DNA of 44,062 nt from Limisphaerales bacterium (GTDB lineage: Bacteria; Verrucomicrobiota; Verrucomicrobiia; Limisphaerales; SXTU01). The notes below the pieces were generated by a model that was given only the letters and a program-made list of their open reading frames with translations, did no database searches and was not told where the DNA came from. This document shows, piece by piece, positions 4,080 to 42,392 of the stretch. The translations under genes and the position numbers were made by a program. Positions within the stretch are counted from its first letter, which is position 1. Every line of letters begins with the position of its first letter. The stretch lies in contig WRPG01000044.1 in the NCBI GenBank assembly GCA_009773355.1, positions 1 through 44,062 of the forward strand, written 5' to 3'.

Positions 4080-4171
4080 GTAGGAGACGAAGTGAGGAGC
4101 CTCTGACCAGATCGGAAGGCGGGAGCGGGACTTGGGAATCCTAATTAGAAACTCCTCACGTCGCCTCCTAC
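4080..4171. repeat. 92-bp palindromic repeat element (MITE-like)
   Basis: Left arm 4080-4099 begins GTAGGAG and right arm 4152-4171 ends CTCCTAC. The two 20-bp arms pair with 18 of 20 matches, around a 52-bp centre that contains TAATTAG. The element fills most of the gap between two co-oriented cytochrome genes. The architecture fits a dispersed non-autonomous palindromic element; no transposase is visible. It could also form a strong RNA hairpin that separates expression of the two genes. Confidence 0.75.
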
Positions 4172-8609: not shown

Positions 8610-10786
8610 GCTTCTCCGCCTTCATCCCGCTCACGGCCGCCATCACCAACCTGGCGCTGACGCTGTTCGTGCTGACGCGCGACCTGCGCTCGCAGCTCAA
8701 CCGCGTCTTCCTGCTGTGGGGGCTGTCCATCGTGGTCTGGAACCTCGGCACGTTCTTCATGTTCACGGTCGAGCAGCCGGAGGACGCCCTGTTCTGGTGC
8801 CGCTTCCTGCACTTCGGCGTCATCTTCATCCCGGTGAGCATGTTCCACCTGGCGCTGCTGGTCGCGCAGGTGCCGGTGACGCCGCGCATCCGGTGGCTCT
8901 ACGGGTGGTTCGCGCTGCTCGCCCTGCTGAACCTCACGCCTTACTTCACCGCCGGCGTCCGCAACGCCGGCTACGCCTTCTACTCCGTGGCGGGGCCGGG
9001 CTTCTGGGTCTTCGCGGTGAGCCACACCGTGCTGGTGCTGGCCACCATCGTCATCCTTTACCGCAAGCAGGCGCGGCTCCAGCGGGTTCACCGGGCGCGC
9101 ATCGAGTCCATGTTGCTGGCCAACGGCATCCTGATTCTGTTTGGCTTCAACGACATCCTGCCCATCCTCGGCTACACCACCTACCCGCTCATCAACAAGC
9201 CCATCTTCCCCTTCGGCAGCGCGGCGGCGATTTTCTACGGCATCATCGTCGGCTACAGTGTCCTCCAGCATCACCTGCTGGACATTCACGTCACGCTCGG
9301 CAAGGCCGCCGCGCACGCGGTGCGGCTGCTGTTCCTCTTCCTCGTCGGCCTGCTGCTGCTGCTGCTGCTCAACGTCTTCCGCCCCGGCGAGTTCACCGGC
9401 TTCACCTTCTTCGGCTCGCTGGTGGTGCTGCTGGTCAGCGCGCTCGTGGCCTCGATTTTCTTCCCACGCCTCTTTGGCAAGGGCGATGAATCCCTCGAAC
9501 AGCGCATCCTCAGCGACCGCTACGGCGACCGCTTCGAGTATCACGACAAGGTGCGCTCCTTCCTCCAGGAGGTGCAGTTCTACAACAACGCCGACCTGCT
9601 GCTCAACGACCTCGACGCGCTGTTCGTGAAAACCATCCGCGTGCGCAACTACCAGATCATCCTGCTCGACGAGTCCACGCACGTCTTCACCGTGTTTCGC
9701 GGCCACCCGAAGGCCGCGCAGGCGCAGCTCCCCGAGCTGCGCGCCGACTCGCCCATCTTCCAGCTCTTCCAAAACACCACCGCCACCTACCTCGCCTTCA
9801 ACCTCGCCTACATCATGCCGGGCGAGACCGAGATGGAGCGCGAGGCGCGGCAGCTTTTGAAACGCTTCGAGCCGGAGTTTTGCTTCCCGTTCTTCAGCGG
9901 CGACGAGCCGTTCGGCCTGCTGCTCATCGGCGAGAAAACCAGCGGCACGCCCTACACGCCGAACGACCTGCAACTGCTCACGCGCCTGGTCAAGAACCTC
10001 AGCCTCATCCTCAACCAGATCCGTCTGAAGAAACAGGTGCTGCTCGCGGAGGAGCTGGAGCTGCTGGGCCGCATGTCGCGCGGCATGGCGCATGACTTGA
10101 ACAACCTGCTCACGCCGGTTTCCACCTTCCTGCAAATCACCAAGGAGACCGCCAACGGCAGCACCGAAGGCGCGAACGAGCTGCTCCCCACCTGCCTGCG
10201 CAACGTCGGCACCATCCAGGCCTACGTGAAGGACGCCCTGTTCTTCTCGCAGAACCACACCGTGCAGATTTCGCGCACGCCGATTGACCAGCTCATCCAC
10301 AAGGTCATCGAGCTGGCCGAGCCGAAGCTCAAGCGCCGCCAGGTGCGCGCCGAAGTGCCCGAGCACCCGCCCACGCTGGTCGAGATGGACGCCGTGCTCA
10401 TGCAGCGCTGCCTCGGCAACATCCTGTCCAACGCGATTGACGCCTCGCCGGTCGGCGCGACCGTGCGCATCGAGCTGCAAAACCTCGCCGCCCCCGAGGC
10501 GGGCCGCGAGTGGGTGCGCGTGCGCGTCATTGACCACGGCGAGGGCATCAGCCGCGAGAACCTCCAGCGGCTCACGTCCGCCTATTTCACCACCAAGGAT
10601 TCCGGCGACGAAAACCGCGGCTTCGGCCTCGGCCTGGCGATCTGCCGGAAAATCGTCCACCAGCACGGCGGCAACCTGAACATCGCCAGCGAGGAGAAGA
10701 AGGGCACGACCGTCACGGTGGACCTGCCCGTCCACTTCGCCCCGCCCAGCCCGCCGCCCAACATCCCGCTGGAGGTGGAGGCATGA
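8606..10786 (+). CDS. 7TM-sensing histidine kinase
   Basis: A sensor kinase of 726 aa. The start at 8606 overlaps the ketosynthase stop (ATGA); earlier in-frame starts lie inside that gene. The first 235 or so residues form about seven membrane helices of the HisKA_7TM sensor type, followed by another hydrophobic pair (about 240-290). A GAF-like region follows (about 330-475). The kinase core has its phospho-accepting His at residue 496 (MSRGMAHDLNNLLTPV, NtrB-like). The HATPase domain shows an N box (LGNILSNAIDAS), G1 (DHGEGIS), F box (YFTTKD) and G2 (GFGLGLAIC). The C-terminus ends in a proline-rich tail. Coupling to a lipid-type enzyme pair suggests it senses a membrane or lipid state (inference). 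The likely partner is the REC-containing kinase 104 bp downstream. Confidence 0.9.
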   Translation: MSFSAFIPLTAAITNLALTLFVLTRDLRSQLNRVFLLWGLSIVVWNLGTFFMFTVEQPEDALFWCRFLHFGVIFIPVSMFHLALLVAQVPVTPRIRWLYGWFALLALLNLTPYFTAGVRNAGYAFYSVAGPGFWVFAVSHTVLVLATIVILYRKQARLQRVHRARIESMLLANGILILFGFNDILPILGYTTYPLINKPIFPFGSAAAIFYGIIVGYSVLQHHLLDIHVTLGKAAAHAVRLLFLFLVGLLLLLLLNVFRPGEFTGFTFFGSLVVLLVSALVASIFFPRLFGKGDESLEQRILSDRYGDRFEYHDKVRSFLQEVQFYNNADLLLNDLDALFVKTIRVRNYQIILLDESTHVFTVFRGHPKAAQAQLPELRADSPIFQLFQNTTATYLAFNLAYIMPGETEMEREARQLLKRFEPEFCFPFFSGDEPFGLLLIGEKTSGTPYTPNDLQLLTRLVKNLSLILNQIRLKKQVLLAEELELLGRMSRGMAHDLNNLLTPVSTFLQITKETANGSTEGANELLPTCLRNVGTIQAYVKDALFFSQNHTVQISRTPIDQLIHKVIELAEPKLKRRQVRAEVPEHPPTLVEMDAVLMQRCLGNILSNAIDASPVGATVRIELQNLAAPEAGREWVRVRVIDHGEGISRENLQRLTSAYFTTKDSGDENRGFGLGLAICRKIVHQHGGNLNIASEEKKGTTVTVDLPVHFAPPSPPPNIPLEVEA

Positions 10787-10811
10787 GCGCGCCTGGGTTC
10801 ACCATCCGCTC

Positions 10812-10878
10812 GGAGCGCAGGCGTCCAACCTGCGCGATGATGATAAGTCTGAACGCGCAGGATGGACTCCTGCGCTCC
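10812..10878. repeat. REP/BIME-like bipartite palindrome, GGAG type
   Basis: Arms 10812-10835 and 10855-10878 pair in 22 of 24 positions around a 19-nt centre, with outer ends GGAGCGC/GCGCTCC. Each arm is also its own hairpin (left GCAGG...CCTGC, right GCAGGA...TCCTGC on the complementary strand). The two mismatches between arms change base-pairing partners within an arm. The element lies between two kinase genes and ends 11 bp before the next ATG. GGAG next to a hairpin matches the described REP layout of a conserved tetranucleotide plus palindrome. Confidence 0.8.
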
Positions 10879-10889
10879 GTCCGTTCCAC

Positions 10890-12959
10890 ATGAAAACCCT
10901 CCTCGTCATCGCGCCGCAGCCGGGCCTCGCCGAGGCCGTGCGCTGCGTGCTGGACGCGGGCGCGTTCCGCGTGCTGCACCACGTCGAGGTCTGGGCCGCC
11001 GAGCCGCTGTTCAGTCAAGGCAGCGTTGATGCCGTCATCCTCGACGCCGAACTGACCGACGTGCGGCCCATCCGCGCCCTCGAGCATCTTCGCCGCGCGC
11101 TGCCCGGCTGCCCGGTCATCCTCTACGCCAACGCCAGCCAGTGGGAATGGGAGGAGGAGGCTTACCTGCTCGGCGTGGACTACATCCTGACCAAGCCCGT
11201 CCGCGCCCGCCTGCTGACCTCGCTGCTGGAGCGCAGTTGGCGGAAGGAGCAAACCCCGACGCCGGTGCCGCCGATGGTTTCGCCTCCCGCCGCCGCCGCG
11301 CCCGCGCGCAACCCCGATCCCGCCCTCGGCGCGCTGCGCGACTTCTCCGGCATCCTCACGCACAGCCTGCACACCGACGCGCTGCTTCGCGAGTTCCTCC
11401 AGCTCCTGCGCGAAATCCTCGGCGTCAACCGCGCCGCCATCTTCCTGCGCGACCCGGCGGCTTCGCTTTCCTCCGCGCCTGCGCTCGGTGTCCCGCCTTC
11501 AGGCGGTCCCGGACGCGGCGGACACGCTGAAGCGTGGACACCAAACGCGGCGCTGCCCGCCGCCTGCGCGCTCGGCCTCACGCCCCAGTTCCTCAGCCAC
11601 TTCGCGCTCTCCTTCCGGGGCGGCATCGGCGCGCACCTGCAACGCCACGCGCGCATCCTCCGGCGCGGCACCGCCGAGGCCGCGCACGACCCCGACATCG
11701 CGCGCGAGTTCGAGCTGCTCGGCGCGCAGGTCGCCATCCCCATCTTCGACCGCGAGTCGCTCCTCGGCATCGCCGTGTTCGACGGCCGGCTGACCGGCGA
11801 GCTGTTCACCAACGAGGAACTCGCACTCGTCTTCCACCTGCTCGAGGAACTCGGCCTCGCCATCCGCAACACCTGGCTGCACGACGCCCTCGCCGGCCAG
11901 CACGGCATGATGACCGACACGCTCGACCAGCTTGGCAGCGCGGTCGTCGTGGTCGCGCGCGACCTGAGCATCGTGCAGGCGAACCTCACCGCGCGCGGCT
12001 TGTTCCGGCGCGGCAGCACCAAGCCCGGCGACTCGTTCGCCTTCACCGACCTTCCGCAGTCACTCGGCAGCAAAGTCTTCGAGGCATTGCAGACCGGCTC
12101 CGCCCCGCCGCCCAGCCGTTGCAAGCTGCCCGGCACTGGCGATGCCACCTTCCGCGTCGTGCTCAAACCCTGCCAGCGCCGCAGCGCCACGGCGCCCGAG
12201 GCCGTGCTGCTCCTGCTCGACGACATGACGCAGGCCGACCGCGCGCAGCAGATGGAGGTCGAGGCCGCGAACCTGCGCCTCGTGCGCAAGATGGCCGAGC
12301 AGCTCGCGCACGAGATCGGCAACTCCCTCGTGCCGCTCTCCACCAGCCAGCAGCTCTTGAGCGAGGGCAAGGACGACCCCGCCACCCGCAAGGAAGTCAC
12401 CGGCATCATGGGCGACAGCGTGCGCCGCATCAGCCGGCTCGCCCGCCAGATGCAGTATCTCTCCCGCGATGGTCTGCGCCGCGTGGAAAGCGTGCCGCTG
12501 GCGCAGCTCATCGAGGAGGCGTTCAAGGAGGCCCACGCGGAAAACCCGCGCGCCTCCGCCCGCCTGCAATACGAAAGCGGCGGCCAGCCGCTCTCGCTCA
12601 TCGCCGAGCGCGCCGGCCTCAAGCACGCCCTCGCCGAAGTGCTGCTCAACGCCCTCCAGGCCACCCCCGACGACCAGCCCGTCGAAGTCGTTTCCAGCAC
12701 CGAGACGCAGCCTGACGGCTCGCGCTGGGTGCGGATAGACGTGCGCGACGCGGGCAAGGGCTTCGACGCCGAGAGCGCCGCGCACGCCACCGAGCCGTTT
12801 TACTCGCAGCGCACCGTCGGCCTCGGCCTCGGCCTGACGGTCACGCGGAAGATCGTCGAGCTGCATCGCGGCCGCATGGAGGTTCGCACCTCCGCTCCCG
12901 GCACCGTGAGCATATCCCTGCCCGCCAACGGCTCCGACCTGGAGCAGTTGGCGGAATGA
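10890..12959 (+). CDS. REC-GAF-PAS hybrid histidine kinase
   Basis: A soluble 689-aa kinase with no membrane segments. An N-terminal receiver domain (1-115) has a phospho-acceptor candidate D52 (AVILDAELTD) and K102 (YILTKPV). The acidic pair expected near residues 8-10 is replaced by A-P-Q, so metal binding and phosphorylation may be altered. A GAF domain follows (about 145-340), then a PAS-like region (about 345-440). The histidine is H474 (QLAHEIGNSLVPL) and the HATPase domain ends with G2 motif GLGLGLTVTRKIVE. A palindromic DNA element is translated in-frame at residues 200-218 inside the GAF region. The order suggests the 7TM kinase just upstream signals to this REC domain, though the REP-like element between them could uncouple expression. 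The output regulator is not in the window. Confidence 0.87.
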   Translation: MKTLLVIAPQPGLAEAVRCVLDAGAFRVLHHVEVWAAEPLFSQGSVDAVILDAELTDVRPIRALEHLRRALPGCPVILYANASQWEWEEEAYLLGVDYILTKPVRARLLTSLLERSWRKEQTPTPVPPMVSPPAAAAPARNPDPALGALRDFSGILTHSLHTDALLREFLQLLREILGVNRAAIFLRDPAASLSSAPALGVPPSGGPGRGGHAEAWTPNAALPAACALGLTPQFLSHFALSFRGGIGAHLQRHARILRRGTAEAAHDPDIAREFELLGAQVAIPIFDRESLLGIAVFDGRLTGELFTNEELALVFHLLEELGLAIRNTWLHDALAGQHGMMTDTLDQLGSAVVVVARDLSIVQANLTARGLFRRGSTKPGDSFAFTDLPQSLGSKVFEALQTGSAPPPSRCKLPGTGDATFRVVLKPCQRRSATAPEAVLLLLDDMTQADRAQQMEVEAANLRLVRKMAEQLAHEIGNSLVPLSTSQQLLSEGKDDPATRKEVTGIMGDSVRRISRLARQMQYLSRDGLRRVESVPLAQLIEEAFKEAHAENPRASARLQYESGGQPLSLIAERAGLKHALAEVLLNALQATPDDQPVEVVSSTETQPDGSRWVRIDVRDAGKGFDAESAAHATEPFYSQRTVGLGLGLTVTRKIVELHRGRMEVRTSAPGTVSISLPANGSDLEQLAE
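11487..11542. repeat. Bipartite palindrome inserted in-frame within a kinase gene
   Basis: Arms 11487-11509 and 11520-11542 share outer ends GGTGTC/GACACC and a central TTCA (TGAA) loop. The left arm folds as CCGCC-TTCA-GGCGG and the right as CACGC-TGAA-GCGTG. The stems differ between arms, but each keeps its own pairing. The element is translated as VPPSGGPGRGGHAEAWTPN within the GAF region of the downstream kinase. Its architecture matches the intergenic element at 12976. Confidence 0.8.
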
Positions 12960-12975
12960 TGGCTTGGTGGGGCGA

Positions 12976-13073
12976 GGAGCGCGGCGTTCACGCCGCTTCA
13001 AAGTCCGGAATCCACCGGCCAGACGTTACGCCACTGCCGCTCGAACGCTGAAGCGGACTGAAGTCCGCGCTCC
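12976..13073. repeat. REP/BIME-like bipartite palindrome upstream of lysS
   Basis: Arms 12976-13000 and 13049-13073 begin and end with GGAGCGC/GCGCTCC and match in 21 of 25 positions. All four differences are compensatory inside each arm: left GCGGCG-TTCA-CGCCGC, right (complement) GCGGAC-TTCA-GTCCGC. The spacer also contains TCCACCGG, which pairs with CCGGTGGA just after the right arm. The element fills most of the 226-bp gap between the kinase gene and lysS. Confidence 0.82.
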
Positions 13074-17315: not shown

Positions 17316-19034
17316 TCACTTCACCACCATGCCCGTGAACGGCGGGACGTAGGCTTGCAGGTAGACGAGGATGCCCACCAGCGCCGCGAGCGCGATGGAG
17401 TGGAAGAAGACGTAGCGCAGGATGCTGCCCTCGTGGCCATACCAGTTCGTCGCCGTGCTCGCCACGACGATGCTCTGCGCGTCCACCATCTTGCCCATCA
17501 CGCCGCCGGAGCTGTTGGCCGCGCACATGAGCACGGGCGCGATGCCGGTCTGCTCGGCGGTGATGCGTTGCAGGCTGCCGAAGAGGACGTTGCTTGCCGT
17601 GTCGCTGCCGGTGAGCGCCACGCCCAGCCAGCCCAGCAGCGTGCCGAAGAAGGGATACAGCGCGCCCGTCTGCGCGAGCGCGAGTCCGAGCGTGGCGTCG
17701 GTGCCGGAATACTTGGTCACGTAGCCGACCGCGAGCATCCCGGCGATGGTGATGAGCGAGAAGCGGACGGCCCACAGTGTGCGGCGATAGACACGCGCCA
17801 GCTCCGCGAGCGAGAAGCCCATGTAAAGTCCGGCGAGGATGGCCGCGACGAGGATGCCGGTGCCGGTGGCGGAGAGCCAGTTGAGCTTGAACACGGCTTC
17901 CTCCGGCTTGGTGGGCTTCTCCGGCGTGGGCTTGGGCACGACGGGGAAGGTGCGGACGGTGGCGTTGTGCAGGCGGGGCATTTCAAACTTCGGCGCGGAG
18001 AGCGCGTCGAGCTGCTGCTTCACCTGCGGCACGCCCCAGATGAACACGAGCACGCTCAGGAGAATCCACGGCACCCACGCGCGGCGGATGAGTTCGGGTG
18101 GGTGGGGCGAGCGTCCCCGCGAGCCGTCGGCATCGCTGGGGGACTCCGTGGCAAGGCTCGCGGGGACGCTCGCCCCACCGGCGGCGGCTTGCGCCTCATT
18201 GACGGGCTTCCACCCGTCCGTTGGCTTCCAGACTTTTAGCAGCCCGATGACCGCGGCCATCGAGCAGATGGCCGCGACGATGTCCACCAGCCACGGGCCG
18301 TGGAAGTTCGAGACGAGGAATTGCGGGATGGCAAAACTCACGCCTGCGGTCAGCGCCGCCGGCCACACGCCGAGCATTCCGCGCCAGCCGGCATAAGCCC
18401 ACACGACCCAGAACGGCACCACGAGCGAGAAGAACGGCAGTTGCCGGCCGACCATCGCCGAGAGCGCGTGCAGGTCCAGCCCCGTCACGCCCGCGAGCGC
18501 GATGATGGGCGTGCCCAGCGCGCCGTAGGCGACGGGAGCGGTGTTCGCGATGAGCGAGAGGCCGGCGGCTTGCAGCGGCTTGAAGCCAAGCTGCATCAGG
18601 ATGGCCGCCGTCACCGCCACCGGCGTGCCGAAGCCCGCCGCGCCCTCGAAGAACGCGCCGAAGCTGAACGCGATCAGCACGAGTTGCACGCGCGGGTCGG
18701 GCGCGAGGTTCGCCAGGCTCCCGCGCAGCACGGCGAAGAGGCCTTTGTCCACCGTGAGCTGGTAGAGGAAAATCAGGTTCAGGATGATCCAGCCGATGGG
18801 AAACAAGCCGTAAGCCGCGCCGTAGCCCGCCGTCGCGAGCGCGGCATCCACTGGCATGTGAAACGCGAACAGCGCCACCGCCAGCGCGACGCCGAGACCG
18901 AGCAGGGCCGCGAGGTGAATCTTGATCTCCAGCCACGCGATGGCTCCGAGCAGCACCACCACCGGCAGCGCGGCAACGAGCGTGGAGAGGAAAGTGTTGC
19001 CCAGCGGGTCGTAATTTTGAGGCCAAGGTTGCAT
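17316..19034 (-). CDS. lldP: L-lactate permease (LctP family)
   Basis: A 572-aa inner-membrane permease with at least twelve hydrophobic segments. LctP proteins import lactate, and often glycolate, with protons. The start at 19034 (MQPWPQNYDPLGN) matches the family's usual beginning; an upstream ATG at 19070 adds 12 residues. Family marks include SFGAFFEGAAGFGTPVAV, NTAPVAYGALGTPII and, near the end, GSDTASNVLFGSLQ and CAANSSGGVMGKM. The cytoplasmic loop after about residue 280 contains a translated palindromic element (residues 286-312). A TGTCGGTCAT palindrome lies about 70-105 bp upstream, between this gene and a divergent AraC-type regulator, and may control it. No lactate dehydrogenase gene is adjacent. 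Confidence 0.93.
   Translation of the reverse strand: MQPWPQNYDPLGNTFLSTLVAALPVVVLLGAIAWLEIKIHLAALLGLGVALAVALFAFHMPVDAALATAGYGAAYGLFPIGWIILNLIFLYQLTVDKGLFAVLRGSLANLAPDPRVQLVLIAFSFGAFFEGAAGFGTPVAVTAAILMQLGFKPLQAAGLSLIANTAPVAYGALGTPIIALAGVTGLDLHALSAMVGRQLPFFSLVVPFWVVWAYAGWRGMLGVWPAALTAGVSFAIPQFLVSNFHGPWLVDIVAAICSMAAVIGLLKVWKPTDGWKPVNEAQAAAGGASVPASLATESPSDADGSRGRSPHPPELIRRAWVPWILLSVLVFIWGVPQVKQQLDALSAPKFEMPRLHNATVRTFPVVPKPTPEKPTKPEEAVFKLNWLSATGTGILVAAILAGLYMGFSLAELARVYRRTLWAVRFSLITIAGMLAVGYVTKYSGTDATLGLALAQTGALYPFFGTLLGWLGVALTGSDTASNVLFGSLQRITAEQTGIAPVLMCAANSSGGVMGKMVDAQSIVVASTATNWYGHEGSILRYVFFHSIALAALVGILVYLQAYVPPFTGMVVK
18101..18179. repeat. Perfect 25-bp inverted repeat in-frame within the lactate permease gene
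   Basis: Arm 18101-18125 (starts GGTGGGGCGAGCG) and arm 18155-18179 (ends CGCTCGCCCCACC) are exact reverse complements over 25 bp, with a 29-bp centre. The whole element is translated as an Ala/Ser/Pro-rich loop in a cytoplasmic segment of the permease. It differs in sequence from the GGAG-type elements but is similar in size and layout. Confidence 0.9.
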
Positions 19035-39991: not shown

Positions 39992-40008
39992 GGCAAACGC
40001 GCGTTAAG

Positions 40009-40157
40009 CTCCAAATCCCAAGTTCCAAATTCCAAAGAAGCTCCAAGTTCCAAGCTCCAAACGACACGGCTCCCCCTGAACGAATGATGCAAGCCATGCC
40101 TGACGTTCATTGGGATTTGAGATTTGGAGCTTCTTTGGAGCTTGGAGCTTGGAATTT
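40009..40157. repeat. Facing arrays of TTCCAAR heptamers between genes
   Basis: Positions 40009-40061 hold seven 7-bp units of the form YTCCAAR or similar (CTCCAAA, TCCCAAG, TTCCAAA twice, CTCCAAG, TTCCAAG, CTCCAAA), broken once by GAAG. Positions 40111-40157 hold the complementary form (TTTGGAG, CTTGGAG, CTTGGAA). The two arrays face each other and can pair imperfectly, filling the gap between the ThuA-hydrolase gene and the sulfatase gene. Confidence 0.75.
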
Positions 40158-42383: not shown

Positions 42384-42392
42384 GGCACGGCG

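Follow-up and report, generated by a model that had tools for sequence, protein, structure and literature searches.

Three palindromes in and around a kinase gene

The window, the whole stretch of 44,062 nucleotides that we analysed, is an entire contig (C125) of a Verrucomicrobia-like genome of 6.16 Mb, whose assembly is 95% complete. Three short palindromes lie in and around its histidine-kinase-like gene (10890-12959), exactly where the first-pass annotation had placed them. Elements 1 and 3 are intergenic, the latter separating the kinase gene from a lysyl-tRNA-synthetase-like gene; element 2, which lies in frame within a variable linker of the kinase, and a further copy at C27:333412 look intragenic. 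Every element is an inverted pair of units, each unit consisting of a 4-6 nt tag and then a 5-7 bp hairpin with a short loop:

10783-10889, no strand: 107-nt stretch containing element 1, missing in seven congeners; CATGA at both ends
10812-10878, no strand: element 1, 67 nt (the modal dimer length), ends GGAGCGC...GCGCTCC; head-to-head REPIN of the GGAG/GTCCA-loop family, which flanks the RAYT1 gene on contig C27
10812-10834, plus strand: left unit of element 1; GGAG, stem CGCAGGC/ACCTGCG with one C:A mismatch beside the loop, loop GTCCA
10856-10878, minus strand: right unit of element 1; GGAG, stem CGCAGGA/TCCTGCG, loop GTCCA
11487-11542, no strand: element 2, 56 nt, ends GGTGTC...GACACC; a head-to-head pair from the GG[A/T]GTC/TTCA-loop family, which has 40 arms genome-wide (control 0)
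11487-11506, plus strand: left unit of element 2; GGTGTC CCGCC TTCA GGCGG
11523-11542, minus strand: right unit of element 2; GGTGTC CACGC TTCA GCGTG
12976-13073, no strand: element 3, 98 nt, ends GGAGCGC...GCGCTCC; a head-to-head REPIN from the GGAGC/TTCA-loop family, which has 74 arms genome-wide (control 3)
12976-12996, plus strand: left unit of element 3; GGAGC GCGGCG TTCA CGCCGC
13053-13073, minus strand: right unit of element 3; GGAGC GCGGAC TTCA GTCCGC

Folded as single-stranded DNA, each element has its two arms paired with each other in the best structure, with z-scores of -8.0, -2.6 and -1.0 for elements 1, 2 and 3; the unit that recurs elsewhere in the genome is each arm's own hairpin. 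Since a z-score of -1.0 proves no structure, that of element 3 rests on covariation. The first-pass annotation had also read a separate hairpin in each arm, TTCA loops (in elements 2 and 3) and compensatory differences between arms; these readings stand, and the covariation extends to copies elsewhere in the genome. Its grouping of the three elements as one family does not hold: loop, tag and RAYT association differ, which rules out copies of a single element and leaves only the layout in common.

Other repeats lie in the same window. A unit of CGTGC + CGGCGGCTTCCAGCCGCCG near 42389 (minus strand) belongs to a family for which we found no linked RAYT and whose tag is GTGC in 38 of 38 sampled copies. 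Positions 18101-18179 hold a perfect inverted repeat of 25 bp, GGTGGGGCGAGCGTCCCCGCGAGCC, whose arms stand 29 nt apart; the 400 kb of C27 that we checked contained no further copy. At 40006-40157 there are inverted low-complexity repeats from CCAAGTTCCAA / AAGCTCCAA, one piece of which occurs five times in the sampled sequence.

Units recur across the genome with covarying stems

Arms were counted by an exact-pattern search of the whole genome, with the backward pattern as control. The GGAGC/GTCCA family of element 1 has 181 arms (92+89; control 0), and the arms of the element 3 and element 2 families divide as 44+30 and 18+22; all three families are dispersed and of high copy number, as REPs are. 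Full-length relatives of element 3 are found on other contigs.

For covariation, copies were picked by tag and loop alone, leaving the 3' arm free. Perfectly complementary arms followed in 44/52 GTCCA, 40/58 TTCA and 15/18 GG[A/T]GTC copies, against 0/36 and 0/12 for control tag/loop combinations, and shuffling partners among copies never attained the observed counts. The TTCA family uses GCGGCG/CGCCGC, GCGGCC/GGCCGC, GCGGCA/TGCCGC and GCGGAC/GTCCGC stems; the GTCCA family uses GCAGGT/ACCTGC, GCCGGT/ACCGGC and GCAGGA/TCCTGC; the GG[A/T]GTC family uses CCGCC/GGCGG, CCGGC/GCCGG, CACCC/GGGTG and CACGC/GCGTG. This is the variable but complementary palindrome 3' of a tag by which REPs are recognised. 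The expectation in the first-pass annotation that the two-hairpin layout would recur genome-wide with covarying stems is borne out; the elements are neither single-copy nor do their arms lose pairing in further copies.

A head-to-head partner was present within 160 nt for 23/32 plus-strand GTCCA arms (modal length 67), 17/25 TTCA arms and 10/10 GGWGTC arms, which matches the REPIN hallmark of a pair of inverted REPs with fixed spacing. Dimers of the element 3 family mostly measure 97-107 nt and those of the element 2 family 50-56 nt; the doublet spacers have a preferred length and unrelated sequences, as is likewise described for Pseudomonas REPINs (PMC3116915). BIMEs of the E. coli type are mosaic arrays in which REPs alternate, with linking motifs and IHF or gyrase sites; our analysis of unit arrangement covered doublets.

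These counts bear on whether the elements could be MITEs that derive from a conventional (DDE) insertion sequence, or palindromes that arose by chance in a GC-rich genome. They are indeed inverted, dispersed and free of genes, unrelated inverted repeats are present in the window, and a short CATGA repeat flanks the element 1 stretch. That repeat, however, was seen at one site only; the copies number in the hundreds against near-zero controls, spacers fixed in length and unrelated in sequence are unlike MITE interiors, and in many genomes RAYT genes are flanked on both sides by such repeats. We regard this explanation as highly improbable.

The tag is not that of described REPs

Within 820 kb of this genome, 118 of 516 GGAGCGC sites (23%) run into a perfect hairpin, against ~3% for most other tags tested, and an unbiased scan for perfect hairpins found GTAG (60 versus 6.0 expected), GTGC, GAGC and GGAG enriched as 5' tags. 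When copies were picked by hairpin alone, 44/46 GTCCA copies and 40/54 TTCA copies carried the tag GGAG-C; GGAGC also tags most copies of four further stem/loop sets picked in this way.

Published REPs are defined by a GT[A/G]G tag at the hairpin foot (PMC3686654, PMC6006769), and CGTC is the other published REP tag (PMC3733652). The tags here, GGAG-C in elements 1 and 3 and GG[A/T]GTC in element 2, are neither, so the statement in the first-pass annotation that GGAG matches described REPs is incorrect. GGAG is the unusual part of these repeats, not the confirming part; in the literature outside subscription papers, no GGAG guide is described in the GTAG/CGTC and RAYT surveys. Since the canonical REP tag is lacking, we file the elements as a GGAG/GGAN-tagged REP variant, REPIN-like and with RAYTs.

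One RAYT gene lies among element 1 repeats

The window itself contains no RAYT gene, as the first-pass annotation had observed, and the genome-wide search that it suggested found RAYT genes elsewhere, one of them flanked by the element 1 repeat. This gene, RAYT1 (C27:165347-165628), scores 89.1 bits against NF047646 (cut-off 80) and has the motifs of a RAYT or TnpA-REP, NHVH (HUH) and YIENNP (Y---NP); among solved structures, the nearest in sequence is that of E. coli TnpA-REP (4er8; E 1e-7, over the catalytic core). RAYT1 is located between GTCCA-loop dimers, with ten GTCCA arms within 3.5 kb.

Two other Y1 genes accompany different repeats: RAYT2 (C27:210111) accompanies GTAG-CTCGACATTCCAATGTCGAG repeats and C63:33496 accompanies GTAG-GAGACGACGTGAGGAGTCTC repeats, while C114:8379 scores as IS200. 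A GGAGTC pair (C63:35110-35209) lies near the C63 gene, which we considered as a source of element 2 and rejected, its close flanks being the GTAG-GAGACGACGTGAGGAGTCTC repeats. Both of these other families reach into the window. Positions 115-185 hold a dimer of the GTAG/GTGG + CTCGACATTCCAATGTCGAG family, which flanks RAYT2 and is represented by 44 distinct copies in the sequence sampled, and CGACGTGAGGAG at 4152 (minus strand) is a piece of the GTAG-GAGxCGACGTGAGGAGxCTC repeat flanking the C63:33496 RAYT.

Repeat tags follow RAYT clades

Repeats flanking RAYTs of the same order carry GGAGC, GGAGT, GTAG or GTGG; we assigned these tags by hand, reading the hairpins next to each gene. In a tree of 62 RAYTs, the split between GG and GT tags takes 3 changes over 36 labelled rows, compared with at least 5 (mean 12.1) when labels are shuffled. 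A subclade of four RAYTs (L151, L152, L153 and L163; support 100/99) is associated with TTCA or TTTA loops; L153 is the RAYT of congener G010, and its repeats are TTCA-loop GGAGC units that include GCGGCGTTCACGCCGC, an arm identical to that of element 3. The RAYTs L190 and L191, from more distant relatives, are flanked by GAGTC or GAGTT before CNNNC-TTYA, resembling element 2. A RAYT gene flanked by the same repeat was thus found for element 1 in this genome (RAYT1) and for element 3 in a congener (L153), and for element 2 only related tags and loops were found, at L190/L191. Within this 95% complete assembly we found no RAYT of the L151/L152/L153/L163 subclade or of the L190/L191 type. Elsewhere in the order, the hairpin GGAGC-GCCGAGCATTGCTCGGC, of which the sampled sequence of our genome has six copies, flanks the L159 RAYT of G046, from a different family; another genome, G023, has 24 RAYT matches, many near-identical in score.

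The best named matches to the RAYT1 clade are Limisphaerales and other Verrucomicrobia bins. We assembled a wider set of 80 named RAYT loci of this clade, mostly from metagenome bins with a few isolates (for example Vineibacter terrae); the loci are attributed to Verrucomicrobia, Chloroflexi, Planctomycetota, Acidobacteria, Proteobacteria, Bacteroidetes/Chlorobi and others, a list that is provisional because bins can be mixed. At the tag position of the hairpins that flank them, GGAG was counted 99 times versus 2.0 expected (45 loci), followed by GGAC (28; 13 loci) and GGAA (26; 16 loci). The next base is C in 88/100 GGAG, 24/24 GGAC and 22/26 GGAA units. Most loci have one tag only, GGAC and GGAA being mostly locus-specific. 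Conserved downstream dinucleotides of GGAG, GGAC and GGAA units gave no clear signal of cleavage sites.

Pseudomonas REPs read GT[A/G]GGAGC + hairpin (PMC2817692, PMC3686654) and hold GGAGC beside the stem, so that the tag might not be new at all, being the inner part of such a REP whose outer GTA or GTG has decayed. Yet no GTA or GTG lies just upstream of GGAGC in this genome, and decayed GTAGGAGC would not yield the excess of GGAG in the 80 loci or their GGAC and GGAA tags; we consider decay unlikely, and prefer to read GGAG as a tag in its own right.

H101 is listed among the guide-contacting residues of E. coli TnpA-REP (PMC8266576, PMC6006769). The corresponding position is R, T or C in 19/19 GGAG-tag RAYTs examined and H in 12/17 GT-tag RAYTs, a strong raw association; because it comprises only 2-3 phylogenetically independent contrasts, we do not assign this residue a role in reading the guide.

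Elements 1 and 2 are missing in congeners

Elements 1 and 2 are missing in all seven congeners that have the element 1 locus. In these seven, the stop of the preceding gene overlaps or abuts the kinase start (e.g. GGCATGAAAACCC in G002); here the two are separated by the 107-nt stretch, of which 39 nt fall outside the REPIN. The seven kinases have the linker without element 2, and the protein of our genome is a net 11 amino acids longer there; because the linker is variable, this site does not represent a clean insertion. The GTCCA copies at C27:114552 and C27:333412 likewise have no counterpart at the corresponding sites in the congeners that we compared. The second, a GTCCA REPIN at C27:333412-333478 (L080, L296), seemingly falls in a variable protein linker, and congeners have unrelated low-complexity inserts at that point.

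Against the 181 GTCCA arms of this genome, each of ten congeners has 0-4, and RAYT1 was not seen among the RAYT matches listed for congeners. The GTCCA family offers a natural example of a REPIN bloom linked with a single RAYT; the congener absences and the amplification in the RAYT1-bearing genome are indirect pointers to mobilisation by a RAYT. The TTCA family is common to the genus, with 3-50 arms per congener, and its copy number does not follow RAYT presence.

Could the elements instead be RNA structures, such as terminators, attenuators or mRNA stabilisers, spread only via duplication or gene conversion? Their placement would suit this, element 3 lying just past a stop codon and element 1 being flanked by genes of the same direction, and in the literature such roles are a secondary function of REPs (PMC3733652). 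However, both element 2 and the copy at C27:333412 look to be inside coding sequence, the conserved tags stand outside the hairpin and vary with RAYT clade, the repeats cluster round RAYT genes in many phyla, and 181 copies here versus 0-4 in congeners would be left unexplained. We therefore find an RNA origin quite improbable.

A model for mobilisation and its relation to known systems

We think it very probable that each element is a REPIN-like, non-autonomous mobile element copied or inserted by a RAYT of the matching clade. Such a RAYT (an HUH/Y1 transposase of the TnpA-REP class) would recognise the tag and hairpin as single-stranded DNA and copy or insert the unit pair elsewhere; recognition of the single strand, cleavage and transposition are proposed by analogy with E. 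coli and other RAYTs (PMC8266576). Stem bases would be free to change as long as pairing holds, with tag and loop kept, and the spacer would be kept in length and not in sequence. RAYT1 would serve the element 1 family in this genome, and the subclade of L151, L152, L153 and L163, as seen in congener G010, would serve the element 3 family, which here is probably an older orphan family because that subclade was not found in the assembly. By tag and loop, the element 2 family would belong to the L190/L191 type.

More tentatively, GGAN-C-tagged REPs and one RAYT clade may constitute an unrecognised REP superfamily in many phyla, in which guide base 2 is G rather than T and base 4 (G, C or A) is mostly locus-specific; we put this forward as a possibility that we would not yet favour. 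If it is true, the dinucleotide that is cut would vary between lineages, being CT, GT or TT under the published guide-pairing model. Because the REP searches in the work cited here were built on GT[A/G]G, families tagged GGAG, GGAC or GGAA would go undetected, and some RAYTs could be recorded as having no REPs. RAYT clades with different guides (GT versus GG; GGAG, GGAC, GGAA) and loops (TTCA, GTCCA and others) would offer a ready-made set for working out how RAYTs read tag, stem and loop.

In comparison with GT[A/G]G REPs that have RAYTs, two of the three families here are without a matching RAYT in the assembly, and the tag is either GG[A/T]GTC or GGAG, the latter broadening to GGAN-C across the wider RAYT clade. 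The GTAG and CGTC super-families, which include those of Opitutus terrae (Verrucomicrobia), share with our families short stems (6-9 bp), 2-4 nt loops, alternative complementary stem residues, head-to-head dimers and several families per genome; unlike ours they are defined by GTAG or CGTC, with GGAG absent among them, and most O. terrae GTAG-20 copies carry GTGG (PMC3733652). RAYT1 keeps W94, Q95, R104, HUH and Y---NP of E. coli TnpA-REP (4er8; PMC8266576, PMC6006769) and differs from it in having D for E100, and H101 differs in GGAG-tag RAYTs. The closest likeness in organisation is to the REPINs and GT[A/G]G REPs of Pseudomonas, Stenotrophomonas and E. coli (PMC3116915, PMC2817692, PMC3686654, PMC6006769), which are likewise built of tag + hairpin units in head-to-head doublets, set in length but divergent in spacer sequence, occur in high copy number, have RAYTs lying between their own repeats, comprise several families per genome, each with its own RAYT, and include occasional in-frame copies within genes.
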